From assembly GCA_029262275.1 (NCBI GenBank), contig JAJCZS010000021.1:1-64000 (forward strand): a stretch of 64,000 nucleotides of DNA. Direction: 5' to 3'. Shown here in pieces: positions 44,835 to 51,085 of the stretch; position 1 is the stretch's first letter; each line of letters starts with the position of its first letter. Both the position numbers and the translations under genes were made by a program. Source of the stretch: Deltaproteobacteria bacterium (lineage in GTDB: Bacteria > Desulfobacterota_D > UBA1144 > Nemesobacterales > UBA2774). The notes beneath the pieces are model-generated. The model was not told where the DNA came from, did no database searches, and saw only the letters and a program-made list of their open reading frames with translations.

Positions 44835-44956
44835 TGTTCTGCTCCTAATCTCTCTTTAATATGCCGATATGTCTTGCATTTTTTGCTAACTTACTTTAAA
44901 TTTCCTATGTAATTTTAAATACTAAAATTATTCATAAATTATTGGGAGGCTATAGC

Positions 44957-46366
44957 ATGGCTAAGAAGAGTAACGGCAAAAGTAAAAATGGAAAAGGGAA
45001 AGGGGAATTTAAATTACCAAAGAGATATGAACAAGCACTGAAGTATCCATTGTTTGATTCAATCTTCAATCGTCGTTCAAGACGTTTTGGTTTAGGAATG
45101 GACCTTCCCGATCAAACGCTCGGTTTTAAATCCAATTACGATCCTGTACCTCTTGAAGAACTTGACGAGGCTTTACTCGCATGGTCCGGAACAGGGCTCA
45201 CGGGTTTATGTCTTGCCGACTTACCTCCTGAGACAGGGATTGACCTTCTTTGCCAATGGACAGGTCGTACCTGGCCATCAGCCTGTAACAATCATGGAAC
45301 AGAACTCTTTTTCACCAATGATGAGGGTCTATACCATATAGATGTAAAACATATGCTTCCTAAAAACCATGAACTCGATATGTTCTTTAAAATGAGCCGC
45401 AATGAAAGGATGGAGCGCGTATTAGAGCTTTACAGAGAAAGTCTTGTTAAGCTAGAAGACGGAAGGGCAGATCTGCCGGATCGTATGCCCGGGCTTTTTA
45501 ATTTCAACGAGTGGAATACTAATAAACCTGGCACTTCAGTATATATACCTGTGACTGACATTACAGAGGAATATCTGAACTTGCTTCATCTCTATTGCAG
45601 TAACACCTATGGATTTACTATTATTGATGACCTAACAGGTAAACCTGCTGGTGTTAGCAAGTGGATAAAGAAAGGCAGATTAAAAGATAGCGTTAAAATG
45701 TCTTTGTTTGATCTTGAGTCAAGAGTGTTAACCGGTCTAAACGTGGAGCAGGCATTTATATGTCAGAACATGAGTCTAGCTTTGCAAGCACTTGGTCTTG
45801 CCGGCTGGACATTTAGCGGATTTATTCCAAGGTTTGCTCTTGGTGCAGCACCTGATTTATTCAAGGGCCTAGGTTTTAATTTTGTACAGCCCAAGAAAGG
45901 AGTCCTCAATCCCCCAGCTACTATTCCTGTGGGACTTGATGGAGTCTTTCAAGGCTACTGTCCTCCTTACTATAAGAATATGGATGAGGCGATTGATGCG
46001 TTTCATGAGCACAAAAATGCTAACTGGGAATCGACTAAACCTTTCCCATATACAGAAGCGGATAAACATCTAATGAGAGCTCCTCAGCCTACAGAGACAA
46101 CTAAACAAATTGTGAAAGACGTTGCCAATTATATTTATGATACTTATGGCAGATTCCCTGCATTTGTTGATCCTATGTATATGCGTCTTGTGTTCCAGGC
46201 AATGAATATTGATACGGAGTTTTATGATGAGCATTATCCTAAAGGCTCCTATTCTGATATTCATAAGGAAAGATTTGAACATAACACAGGACAGGCTAAA
46301 AAGGGAAAGAAAGTAGTAAAGAAAAAAGCTAAAAAGGGTACTGGAAAGAAAGGCGCACGGGCTTAA
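44957..46366 (+). CDS. Nitroreductase-superfamily-like protein with Lys-rich tails
   Basis: A 469-residue protein; the ATG at 44957 has GGGAGG seven bases before it, while the upstream in-frame TTG (44942) overlaps that site. The body looks like the nitroreductase fold: FNRRSRRFGLG near the start, then PVPLEELDEALLAWSGTG, and late in the chain QNMSLALQALGLAGWTF. Most of the middle I cannot match. Both ends are strongly basic: AKKSNGKSKNGKGKG at the N-terminus and a C-terminal run of KK-rich AlgP/H1-like repeats. The tails suggest binding to nucleic acid or acidic surfaces. It is followed by an HU/IHF gene with its own promoter. Family assignment is tentative. Confidence 0.55.
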   Translation: MAKKSNGKSKNGKGKGEFKLPKRYEQALKYPLFDSIFNRRSRRFGLGMDLPDQTLGFKSNYDPVPLEELDEALLAWSGTGLTGLCLADLPPETGIDLLCQWTGRTWPSACNNHGTELFFTNDEGLYHIDVKHMLPKNHELDMFFKMSRNERMERVLELYRESLVKLEDGRADLPDRMPGLFNFNEWNTNKPGTSVYIPVTDITEEYLNLLHLYCSNTYGFTIIDDLTGKPAGVSKWIKKGRLKDSVKMSLFDLESRVLTGLNVEQAFICQNMSLALQALGLAGWTFSGFIPRFALGAAPDLFKGLGFNFVQPKKGVLNPPATIPVGLDGVFQGYCPPYYKNMDEAIDAFHEHKNANWESTKPFPYTEADKHLMRAPQPTETTKQIVKDVANYIYDTYGRFPAFVDPMYMRLVFQAMNIDTEFYDEHYPKGSYSDIHKERFEHNTGQAKKGKKVVKKKAKKGTGKKGARA

Positions 46367-47511: not shown

Positions 47512-48663
47512 ATGCCGTCTAAGCTTTCAGAGGAATTATCACCTTTCTATGTAATGGATGTGTTAGAGAGGGCCAAAGAAATAGAGGCCTCGGGAAAGAG
47601 CGTTATACATTTTGAGGTAGGTGAGCCTGACTTTGACACACCCGAAGTCATATCAGAAGAAGCTATTAAGTCCATACAAGAAGGCGATACCAAATACACT
47701 CACAGCCTTGGGATACCTGAGCTTAGAGAAGCGGTCTCTGAGAACTACCGAAAGAATTATGCTGTAGATATAGATCCCAGCACGGTAGTTGTTACAATGG
47801 GCAGCTCTCCTGCTCTATATCTCTCAATAATCTCTTTAATAGAACCTGGAGATGAGGTTCTCATTACAGACCCTCATTACGCCTGCTACCCTCAGATAAT
47901 TAAAATCGCAGGAGGGGTTCCCAAAACATTTAGGATTTATGAGGATGAAGGATTTCAAATAAGTGTAGATAGATTGAAAGAGGCCATCACGCCAAAAACA
48001 AGGGCTATTTTAATCAATTCCCCAGCCAACCCTACGGGTGTTGTTTTGGAACCTGAGGTTATGAAAGAAATAGCAGAGCTAGGGATATTTATAATATCGG
48101 ATGAGATATATCATGGGCTCGTGTACAAAGGCAAAGCCAGAACTATTTACGAGGTGACTGATAAAGCTTTTGCTGTAAATGGATTTTCTAAATTCTACTC
48201 TATGACAGGTTGGAGACTCGGGTATCTTATAGCACCTAAAGATTTTGTTAGACCTATTCAGAAGCTTCAACAGAATTTGTTTATATCGCCCAATGCATTT
48301 GTCCAGAGAGCTGGGGTTCAAGCTTTAGTAAAAGCACAGAAGGATGCCCTGGATATGGCTGAGCTCTTTAATGAAAGAAGAAAAATTATGATTGAAGGTA
48401 TAAAAGAGCTTGGATTCAAAATTGATAGCGAACCACAAGGAGCTTTCTATTTGTTTGTTGATGCTAGCAAAATAAATCCTAATTCGCATGAATTGGCATT
48501 TGATATTTTAGAGAACGCTCATGTTGCAGTAACCCCCGGAGTGGATTTTGGAGAGGGTGGAGAAGGGTATTTACGGTTTTCATATGCAACTTCTATTTCT
48601 AACATCAAAGAAGGTATGAGAAGGCTGGGCAAATATATTAATCAAAAAGGCATTACTTTATGA
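47512..48663 (+). CDS. PLP-dependent class I aminotransferase
   Basis: A 383-residue fold-type I transaminase of the aspartate aminotransferase superfamily. Seen are YTHSLGIPELREAV, the substrate loop NSPANPTGVV, the PLP-binding SDEIYHGLVY, the Schiff-base Lys in NGFSKFYSMTGWRLGY, and a conserved Arg in LRFSYA. Amino donor specificity is unclear. The stop overlaps the start of the PGK-like gene by 4 bases, which ties it to the glycolytic operon. Confidence 0.88.
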   Translation: MPSKLSEELSPFYVMDVLERAKEIEASGKSVIHFEVGEPDFDTPEVISEEAIKSIQEGDTKYTHSLGIPELREAVSENYRKNYAVDIDPSTVVVTMGSSPALYLSIISLIEPGDEVLITDPHYACYPQIIKIAGGVPKTFRIYEDEGFQISVDRLKEAITPKTRAILINSPANPTGVVLEPEVMKEIAELGIFIISDEIYHGLVYKGKARTIYEVTDKAFAVNGFSKFYSMTGWRLGYLIAPKDFVRPIQKLQQNLFISPNAFVQRAGVQALVKAQKDALDMAELFNERRKIMIEGIKELGFKIDSEPQGAFYLFVDASKINPNSHELAFDILENAHVAVTPGVDFGEGGEGYLRFSYATSISNIKEGMRRLGKYINQKGITL

Positions 48664-49853
48664 AACTACCTTCCATTGCAGAAATAGATATAGCCGACAA
48701 AAGTGTCTTTATAAGGGCAGATTTTGATGTGCCACTTAGTAAGGAAGGCGAAGTTCTAAATAACAATAAAATATTAAATGTGCTTCCTACTATAAGATAT
48801 GCCTTGGGTCAAAAGGCAAAGGTAATAATTGGCTCTAATATAGGCAAGCCTGGAGGTAGATATAATCAAAAATTCAGTCTTGAGCCAGTTGGTAGAGTCT
48901 TATCCGAGACCTTGGGTGTGGAAATATTTTTCCCTGACAATTCTATTGGAGAGGCGGTTAAGAAAATTGGGTCTGATATGCAGCCAGGCCAAATTATGCT
49001 TCTTGAGAACTTGGAATTTCAAAAAGGAGAATTAGAGAATAGCTCGGAGTTTGCTAAAAAGCTTGCAGAGTGTGCAGACATCTATGTGAATGAAGCATTC
49101 TCGCTGTCTAATAAGACTACAGCTTCTCTAAGTAGTATTTGTGGATACTTTGAGAAACTATGTGTAGGTTTCCAATTCAAGAAGGAGATTGAAAATTTAG
49201 ATCGTATTAGAAACCCGGAGAGGCCTTTTACAGCAATTTTCGGGGGCGACAATGTATCAGAAAAGCTGAATCTTATGGATAGTATGCTAGAAAGTGTCGA
49301 CACTGTTATTGTTGGCGGGGTTATAGCAAACACTTTCTTAAATGTGCTTAGTGGGGAAACTGGTACATCTACGATAGATAAAACTGCTTTATATAACATT
49401 AAGAGATTTATGTCCTCTGCAGAAACTAGGAATATCAGACTTATCCTTCCTCAAGATATTGTTGCAATTAAAGGGCATTTGAACAATTACCAGAGTTCCT
49501 TTATAATTTCTGGCGGTCGTATGCCTGAGGATATGCAGGTTGTTGATATGGGACCCGCTACACAGGCTGATTATGAAAGCAGATTGGCTAAAGCCAAGAC
49601 GATTCTTTGGACTGGCCCCATGGGCATTTGTGAGGACTCTGAGTTTAAAAAGGGCACGCAATCTCTTGCGAAAGTATTAGCCAAATCAGATAGTTTCAAT
49701 GTGATTATTGGGCAAGATACTATAGACATAGCCCTTGAATCAATCGAAGATTTGGGAAGAAGCCATATTTCCTACGGTGGGCAAACAGCATTAGAATATA
49801 TAATGGGCCAAAAATTGCCTGCTATGGAAGCTATGGAAGAGCGAATTAAATGA
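48660..49853 (+). CDS. Divergent phosphoglycerate kinase homologue lacking substrate-site residues
   Basis: A 397-residue protein that aligns end to end with phosphoglycerate kinase (RADFDVPLS, LENLEFQKGE, ILWTGPMGICE, LPAMEAMEERIK). Compared with E. coli PGK the substrate basic patch is changed: the Arg in ARI is Lys37, HLGRP is NIGKP (Asn60, Lys63), ENVRF is ENLEF (Glu119), AHRAQAS is SNKTTAS (Asn151, Lys152), and the Asn of LNVP is Asp23. The nucleotide loop GGSKVS reads GGDNVS, and GGGDT reads IGQDT. It overlaps tpiA by 4 bases, the normal pgk place, but no gap gene precedes it. It may be a repurposed or inactive paralogue, or an enzyme with altered chemistry. Confidence 0.85.
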   Translation: MKLPSIAEIDIADKSVFIRADFDVPLSKEGEVLNNNKILNVLPTIRYALGQKAKVIIGSNIGKPGGRYNQKFSLEPVGRVLSETLGVEIFFPDNSIGEAVKKIGSDMQPGQIMLLENLEFQKGELENSSEFAKKLAECADIYVNEAFSLSNKTTASLSSICGYFEKLCVGFQFKKEIENLDRIRNPERPFTAIFGGDNVSEKLNLMDSMLESVDTVIVGGVIANTFLNVLSGETGTSTIDKTALYNIKRFMSSAETRNIRLILPQDIVAIKGHLNNYQSSFIISGGRMPEDMQVVDMGPATQADYESRLAKAKTILWTGPMGICEDSEFKKGTQSLAKVLAKSDSFNVIIGQDTIDIALESIEDLGRSHISYGGQTALEYIMGQKLPAMEAMEERIK

Positions 49854-50608
49854 AGAGGAATATGATAGCGGGAAATTGGAAAATGAATATGCTCCGCCAT
49901 GAGGCAAGCGAGCTTACTCAAAATATTATCTCTGGAGTAGCTGCTCTAACTCACGATATTGATATTCTACTTGCTCCACCATATACGTCATTAGATATAG
50001 TCAGAGAACTATTAAATAATACAGAAATAAAGCTTGCAGCTCAGGATGTTTTTTGGGAAGACCGCGGTGCTTATACAGGCGAGATATCTCCAGCTATGCT
50101 TATTGATGCTGGGTGTGAGTGGACAATCATAGGTCACTCGGAGAGAAGAGGGATTCTTGGTGAGACAGACTCCGTTGTTAGAAAAAAGATTAAGGCTTCA
50201 CTTGAGGACGGACTAAACGTAATAGTATGTGTCGGAGAAACCCTAGAGCAAAGAGAAGAGGGTAAAACTATACAGATTGTTACATCTCAAGTTGAAAGTG
50301 CACTTAAGGATTTAGAGCTTAATGACATGGCTAGCTTTGTCATAGCATATGAACCTATATGGGCAATTGGTACAGGGAAAAATGCGACTCCAGAGGAAGC
50401 TGAACATGTACATGCTACAATTCGTGAAATAACAGGTAATATATTCGGTCAAGATTCTGAACTAATAAGAATCATTTACGGAGGAAGTGTTAACGTAGAT
50501 AATATTGAAGAACTCATCAATATGGATAATATAGACGGTGCACTGATAGGAGGCGCCGGCCTTAATGCTGATTCCTTTGTTAGTATAGTAAAAATTGCAG
50601 GAGAGTAG
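49850..50608 (+). CDS. tpiA: Triosephosphate isomerase
   Basis: A 252-residue TIM-barrel enzyme interconverting dihydroxyacetone phosphate and glyceraldehyde 3-phosphate. All catalytic parts are intact: GNWKMN (Asn, Lys), GHSERR (His), AYEPIWAIGTGK (Glu and the mobile lid) and IIYGGSVN. The ATG overlaps the PGK-like stop by 4 bases, and secG follows 6 bases later. Its intact active site contrasts with its degenerate neighbour. Confidence 0.96.
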   Translation: MKRNMIAGNWKMNMLRHEASELTQNIISGVAALTHDIDILLAPPYTSLDIVRELLNNTEIKLAAQDVFWEDRGAYTGEISPAMLIDAGCEWTIIGHSERRGILGETDSVVRKKIKASLEDGLNVIVCVGETLEQREEGKTIQIVTSQVESALKDLELNDMASFVIAYEPIWAIGTGKNATPEEAEHVHATIREITGNIFGQDSELIRIIYGGSVNVDNIEELINMDNIDGALIGGAGLNADSFVSIVKIAGE

Positions 50609-50614
50609 ATAAAA

Positions 50615-51085
50615 GTGGAACTAATAATATACGCTGTACAGGTTATACATTTAGTAGTCAGTATCCTTCTTATTGTGGTTGTACTTCTTCAACCTGGTAA
50701 GGGTGGAGATCTAGGGTCGGTTTTTGGTGGCGGTGGTGGTGGATCAAGCGAATCTGTTTTCGGAGCAGCAGGCGCAGTTCCGTTTCTCTCTAAGGTAACG
50801 AGAGTGCTAGCGGTTCTATTCTTGCTGAGTTCTCTTACGCTTGGTTATTTTGCAGCCAAAAATGTGAGCTCATCAGTAGTAACTGATATACCGGCTGCTC
50901 AGCAGAGTAGTGAATTTGCTCCATCAGCTGAAGTTACTCAACCCGAGACATCTAGTGAGCAGACTGCTCCAGCCGAGGTAACTCAGGACACAGAAGAATC
51001 TGCACCAGAGGGTGGAGAGGCTTCAGAGTCCGATGCTCCGGCCAATGAAGAACCAGCTCCTGAGAGTAGTCAGGAAACTCAATAA
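50615..51085 (+). CDS. secG: Preprotein translocase SecG with long acidic tail
   Basis: A 156-residue SecG starting at GTG, after a CAGGAGAG site. Two TM segments (about 5-24 and 56-78) flank VVLLQPGKGGDLG and a glycine run GGGGGSSESVFG, the SecG signature. The tail of about 75 residues after TM2 is low-complexity, rich in Glu, Ser, Pro and Ala, as in many SecG proteins, and lies in the cytoplasm or periplasm depending on topology. Following tpiA is the usual gene order. Confidence 0.93.
   Translation: MELIIYAVQVIHLVVSILLIVVVLLQPGKGGDLGSVFGGGGGGSSESVFGAAGAVPFLSKVTRVLAVLFLLSSLTLGYFAAKNVSSSVVTDIPAAQQSSEFAPSAEVTQPETSSEQTAPAEVTQDTEESAPEGGEASESDAPANEEPAPESSQETQ

Follow-up and report, generated by a model that had tools for sequence, protein, structure and literature searches.

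Does a gene in a common bacterial position for phosphoglycerate kinase (PGK), directly before tpiA and secG, still encode that enzyme when the residues of its active site have been exchanged? The question is raised by a locus in the window, that is, the whole 64,000-nucleotide stretch of DNA analysed here, which comes from a genome of Candidatus Dadabacteria (the same genus as genome G001). An earlier note on this DNA had described a PGK homologue with a rewritten substrate site and had offered two alternatives, namely that the organism uses another PGK, this copy having a new role, or that the lineage has an unusual but working PGK site. The gene, here termed PGKdiv, and its neighbours are arranged as follows.

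47512 to 48663, plus strand: class I/II aminotransferase gene, upstream of PGKdiv and overlapping it by 4 bases
48660 to 49853, plus strand: PGKdiv, a putative PGK-derived pseudoenzyme of 397 aa (PF00162 at 348 bits, predicted fold, active-site residues lost)
49850 to 50608, plus strand: tpiA, catalytic motifs intact, downstream of PGKdiv and overlapping it by 4 bases
50615 to 51085, plus strand: secG, 3' of tpiA

The 4-base overlaps on both sides of 48660-49853, the pgk-tpiA-secG order and the intact catalytic motifs of tpiA agree with the earlier description. Further upstream, the window encodes a 474-aa protein without a Pfam match (44942-46366) that lies 5' of HU in several genomes of the window's family, f1, and a homologue of which adjoins fbaB in G018 (L041:3799-5187).

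By homology and fold, PGKdiv is a member of the PGK family. Its ORF of 397 codons begins with ATG, has no internal stop and matches the Pfam PGK model (PF00162) along its length (residues 6-383 of 397) with 348 bits against a cut-off of 27. An AlphaFold model built with 38 other sequences (mean pLDDT 93.8) predicts the full two-domain PGK fold, with a TM-score of 0.94 and an rmsd of 1.5 on 1PHP, which is the best match among the nearest solved structures, all of them ordinary PGKs; the scaffold is thus retained, as had been supposed. The active site is a different matter, as the alignment with 1PHP makes apparent (PGK numbering is offset from that of the window protein, Lys215 of PGK, for instance, being codon 198).

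48726 to 48728, plus strand: codon 23, Asn25 of PGK replaced by Asp (alignment)
48768 to 48770, plus strand: codon 37, Arg38 of PGK replaced by Lys (alignment)
48834 to 48851, plus strand: codons 59-64, SHLGRP replaced by SNIGKP, with His62 and Arg65 lost (N60, K63; alignment)
49014 to 49016, plus strand: codon 119, Arg122 replaced by Glu (ENxRF to ENLEF; alignment)
49110 to 49115, plus strand: codons 151-152, His169-Arg170 replaced by Asn-Lys (alignment)
49251 to 49253, plus strand: codon 198, catalytic Lys215 replaced by Asn (alignment)
49707 to 49718, plus strand: codons 350-353, GGGD replaced by IGQD (alignment)

Every substitution that had been listed beforehand (Lys37, NIGK, Glu119, those at 151-152, Asn198 and IGQD) is present. 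The 3-phosphoglycerate (3PG) site, comprising D23, N25, R38, H62, R65, R122, H169 and R170, has lost seven of its eight residues, only Asp23 (PGK numbering) being left. Absent from that earlier list are the exchange at N25 and further changes at T393 (Y372 in the window protein), G396 (Q375), G239 (V221) and N336 (T318); the glycine triplet 394-396 reads GGQ, the STGGG loop having become SYGGQ, and K202, E325, D353 and T354 are kept. Judged by its residues, the window protein lacks what a functional PGK has in the 3PG site, at Lys215 and in the nucleotide loops. In human PGK1, the R38M change alone reduces a turnover of 89.8 per second to 7.2e-6 per second, the Arg38 to Lys exchange of PGKdiv being milder than R38M, and R38, K215 and K219 jointly balance the transition-state charge (PMC6040698); the 3-phosphate is bound by Arg65, Arg122 and Arg170 (PMC7729029). 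With K215, which steadies the phosphate in transfer, and these three arginines lost, and Lys in place of R38, the window protein is probably inactive as a PGK.

PF00162 detects two PGK genes in the assembly, which measures 2.48 Mb and is 97.5% complete. In the second, at G000:C8:30867-31988, the 3PG site is complete (8/8 residues), both Lys215 and Lys219 are present and the glycine loops are retained; this gene lies between gap, with a 4-base overlap, and fbaB in a gap-pgk-fbaB operon; enolase is also encoded in the genome. The search for a second canonical pgk and for gap that the earlier note had proposed is therefore positive for both, in line with the first of its alternatives: given this ordinary PGK, PGKdiv need not carry out the PGK reaction, and the gap-linked copy presumably does that chemistry. 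In the ordinary PGK of the window's genome, Asp374 is exchanged for Glu and Asn336 for Gly, and among ordinary Dadabacteria PGKs Glu replaces the invariant Asp374 in 26 of 37 and Ser or Gly replaces Asn336 in 15 of 37 (loci include L001 and L033). As Glu374 is likewise seen in family f5, in which the ordinary PGK is the only one, it is presumably compatible with activity. An additional PGK, outside both operons and with its catalytic residues intact, is found in three f4 genomes (L037 in G028, L038 in G034 and L039 in G022), two of which are missing the tpiA-linked copy.

A survey of 58 genomes of the phylum Candidatus Dadabacteria places the locus within a conserved operon, HU-def-aminotransferase-tpiA-secG-ferredoxin-nth. 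A divergent PGK lies between the aminotransferase gene and tpiA in 23 of the 58 genomes, which belong to five families (14 in f1, five in f4, two in f7, one in f3 and one in genus g15 of f6); tpiA follows directly 3' in 23/23, with stop-start overlaps, and is single-copy in all. The occurrence of the same gene, open at the same place, in 22 other Dadabacteria genomes rules out a sequencing artefact or contamination. An ordinary gap-linked PGK is found in addition to PGKdiv in 22 of the 23, the exception, G013, being 80% complete. Among the examined members of f5, f8 and genus g10 of f6, the interval from the aminotransferase gene to tpiA is free of any PGK, a clean absence, and the f5 and f8 genomes carry the ordinary gap-linked PGK alone. 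The same interval holds a decayed remnant of PGKdiv in G022 of f4 (L210:1506-2290; tblastn 2e-6) and a weak one in G028 (tblastn 0.005). PGKdiv is thus dispensable in the lineages that lack it and in G022. In G043, tpiA and the adjoining aminotransferase gene lie in pieces with stops (L214:6188-7752), through sequencing error or possibly real decay.

In a scan across phyla, tpiA is near pgk in 63 of 80 PGK loci among the matches listed (one being the Dadabacteria locus L072), so the divergent copy occupies a common bacterial pgk position, of which it would be the original resident. Beyond Dadabacteria, matches reached no more than 296 bits in 247 genomes sampled from another phylum, that of G060 (a Desulfobacca-containing record), as compared with at least 391 bits for f1 and f4 orthologues; relatives as strongly diverged as the orthologues of f3, f6 and f7, for which the score is only 148-232 bits, would not be recognisable in this manner, and rare ones may exist beyond the matches listed. 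Two PGK-like frames from elsewhere were also observed: a 504-aa protein with long insertions (L220:2113-3627) from a Nitrospirota bin in which an ordinary PGK is encoded as well, and an acidobacterial 571-aa frame on the minus strand of L221, in which an apparent membrane segment precedes a stretch similar to the N-terminal domain of PGK.

A maximum-likelihood tree of 88 sequences separates the 23 tpiA-linked copies, by a single branch supported at 100/100, from 25 reference PGKs and from the ordinary Dadabacteria PGKs, which group elsewhere; the tree also rules out that PGKdiv is a recent duplicate of the ordinary pgk in its genome. The PGKdiv branches are very long, up to 2-3 changes per site, and the order of f3, f6 and f7 within the clade is unsure for that reason. 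Lys215 is absent from all 23 copies (N, S, C, R, D or E stands in its place) and present in 37/37 ordinary and 25/25 reference PGKs. In f4, the 3PG site is complete (8/8 residues) in each of the five members, Lys215 has given way to Asn or Ser and Gly373, in 5/5, to Trp; in f1, both the 3PG and the nucleotide-phosphate sites are lost in part. The simplest order, read from these present-day states rather than from an ancestral reconstruction, would be loss of the nucleotide-phosphate site and only later of the 3PG patch, with the f4 members as a possible intermediate state.

Selection on the gene has not ceased. Within the genus, omega (dN/dS) is 0.106 for PGKdiv, 0.101 for tpiA, 0.060 for the aminotransferase gene and 0.044 for the ordinary PGK; PGKdiv therefore evolves faster than the latter, yet under clear purifying selection, and this combination with lost catalytic residues fits what is expected of a maintained pseudoenzyme. 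Relative to ordinary PGKs, the segments that have lost most constraint include 149-161, 372-384, 341-353, 194-206, 31-43 and 60-72, and mainly cover motifs of the substrate site, the nucleotide site and the hinge; heading the ranking is 356-368, which comes after the GGGD loop. The largest relative gains fall at 97-109, 272-284, 1-13 and 82-94, the first two of which are candidate functional surfaces.

48948 to 48986, plus strand: codons 97-109 (GEAVKKIGSDMQP), candidate interface, with a higher relative conservation in PGKdiv than in ordinary PGKs
49473 to 49511, plus strand: codons 272-284 (GHLNNYQSSFIIS), C-domain hairpin, candidate interface or pocket, conserved in f1 and f4 PGKdiv

That constraint has moved out of the cleft points to a role in binding or as a scaffold, against which other explanations must be weighed. 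One is a neofunctionalised kinase, its PGK fold retuned to phosphorylate or bind another substrate. Within the window's family, D23 and K37 (window numbering) are invariant, residue 119 is always Asp or Glu and residue 152 is Gln in 12/14; the nucleotide-site columns are more conserved than the rest (p 0.02), and much of the adenosine side (G195, G196, K202, G219, G220, E325 and T354) is kept in most f1 and f4 members, so that a ligand may still bind and weak activity is possible. We nevertheless consider such a kinase improbable, as a wide range of residues stands in for Lys215, part of the family no longer has Asp374, the phosphate-adjacent glycines have become Q, E, D or W, and residues 60, 63 and 151 vary even inside the window's genus. 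Column entropy at the 3PG site of this family is 0.90, as against 1.05 for the rest (p 0.29) and approximately zero in ordinary PGKs; these columns as a set, being no more conserved than the rest, look more like lost constraint than a new conserved substrate site. The earlier description of the site as "rewritten" is borne out only in part.

Slow decay of a redundant gene, preserved by nothing more than its operon position or its translational coupling to tpiA through the stop-start overlaps, would accommodate the graded loss across families, the remnants in G022 and G028 and the clean absences; it is made quite unlikely by the 23 intact ORFs over very long branches, the omega noted above and the newly constrained blocks, and the aminotransferase gene lies directly before tpiA in genomes without PGKdiv, so coupling does not need it. 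As for a working PGK with an unusual active site, the second of the earlier alternatives, the changes to seven of eight 3PG residues and to Lys215 are inconsistent between relatives, an ordinary copy is present, and the f5 and f8 genomes live with such a copy alone. The full predicted fold and the retention of K202, E325, D353 and T354 speak for it, as does the ordinary copy of the window's family, itself unusual (N336 to S or G, D374 to E), which might not be the sole active one; on balance, we regard a working enzyme as very improbable.

The reading that we favour, and hold to be likely, is that PGKdiv is a PGK turned pseudoenzyme in the tpiA slot, freed by the gap-pgk-fbaB copy and still maintained by selection. 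The tpiA-linked gene would have been free to lose catalysis because the gap-linked copy did the work; the nucleotide-phosphate site would have gone first, a state persisting in f4, and the 3PG patch would have followed in the window's family. With less certainty, the protein may then have been retained for a non-catalytic binding role, as a scaffold or ligand-responsive partner, for which binding surfaces are proposed around residues 1-13, 82-109 and 272-284. A partner from its own operon is one possibility, and the tpiA linkage in 23/23 genomes makes TpiA a candidate; operon position alone could account for this linkage, and a mirror-tree test did not find a TpiA-specific signal (partial r 0.53 for TpiA, 0.68 for the aminotransferase and 0.63 for SecG). 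A more specific proposal, wherein PGKdiv serves TpiA, or a different operon product, as a subunit with a regulatory or structural function, the nucleotide-phosphate site was lost first and the f4 form is a 3-phosphoglycerate sensor, has an outside but real chance of being correct.

Compared with known systems, PGKdiv shares with canonical PGK (PF00162; 1PHP, 1ZMR) the fold, length, domain order, structural glycines and slot before tpiA-secG, but it has lost the 3PG basic patch, Lys215 and the GGGD and GGG loops, evolves fast and coexists with an ordinary PGK. Kinetoplastid PGK-like proteins are predicted to be inactive, and one of them, TbPGKL, is tied to the flagellum, its gene being deletable in insect-stage cells (PMC7729029, PMC4106842). 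These dead PGKs likewise have lost catalytic residues, are kept beside active PGKs and have poorly conserved pocket residues; they differ in being eukaryotic and often fused to extra domains, whereas PGKdiv is bacterial, stands in an operon with tpiA and consists of the PGK domain only, the cNMP-binding, HTH and transmembrane domains of kinetoplastid PGKL being absent. PGK-TIM fusions exist in Thermotoga (PMC7729029) and resemble PGKdiv in that PGK immediately precedes triosephosphate isomerase and is coupled to it; in the fusion both parts are enzymes within one chain, whereas PGKdiv is a separate gene, with catalytic residues lost, whose ORF overlaps that of tpiA by 4 bases and which scores 355.5 against a cut-off of 883 with the fusion model (NF010569). 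In the collection of papers that was searched, no inactive bacterial PGK is described.

These results carry a warning for annotation, in that homology and operon position would label PGKdiv as pgk. Second, non-catalytic jobs are often ascribed to glycolytic enzymes and are hard to separate from catalysis. Dadabacteria appear to have split the roles, one PGK gene keeping the chemistry and the other having lost catalysis yet still being under selection, and the f4 members, with the 3PG site intact and Lys215 lost, allow a direct test of which site was lost first and of whatever role is left.
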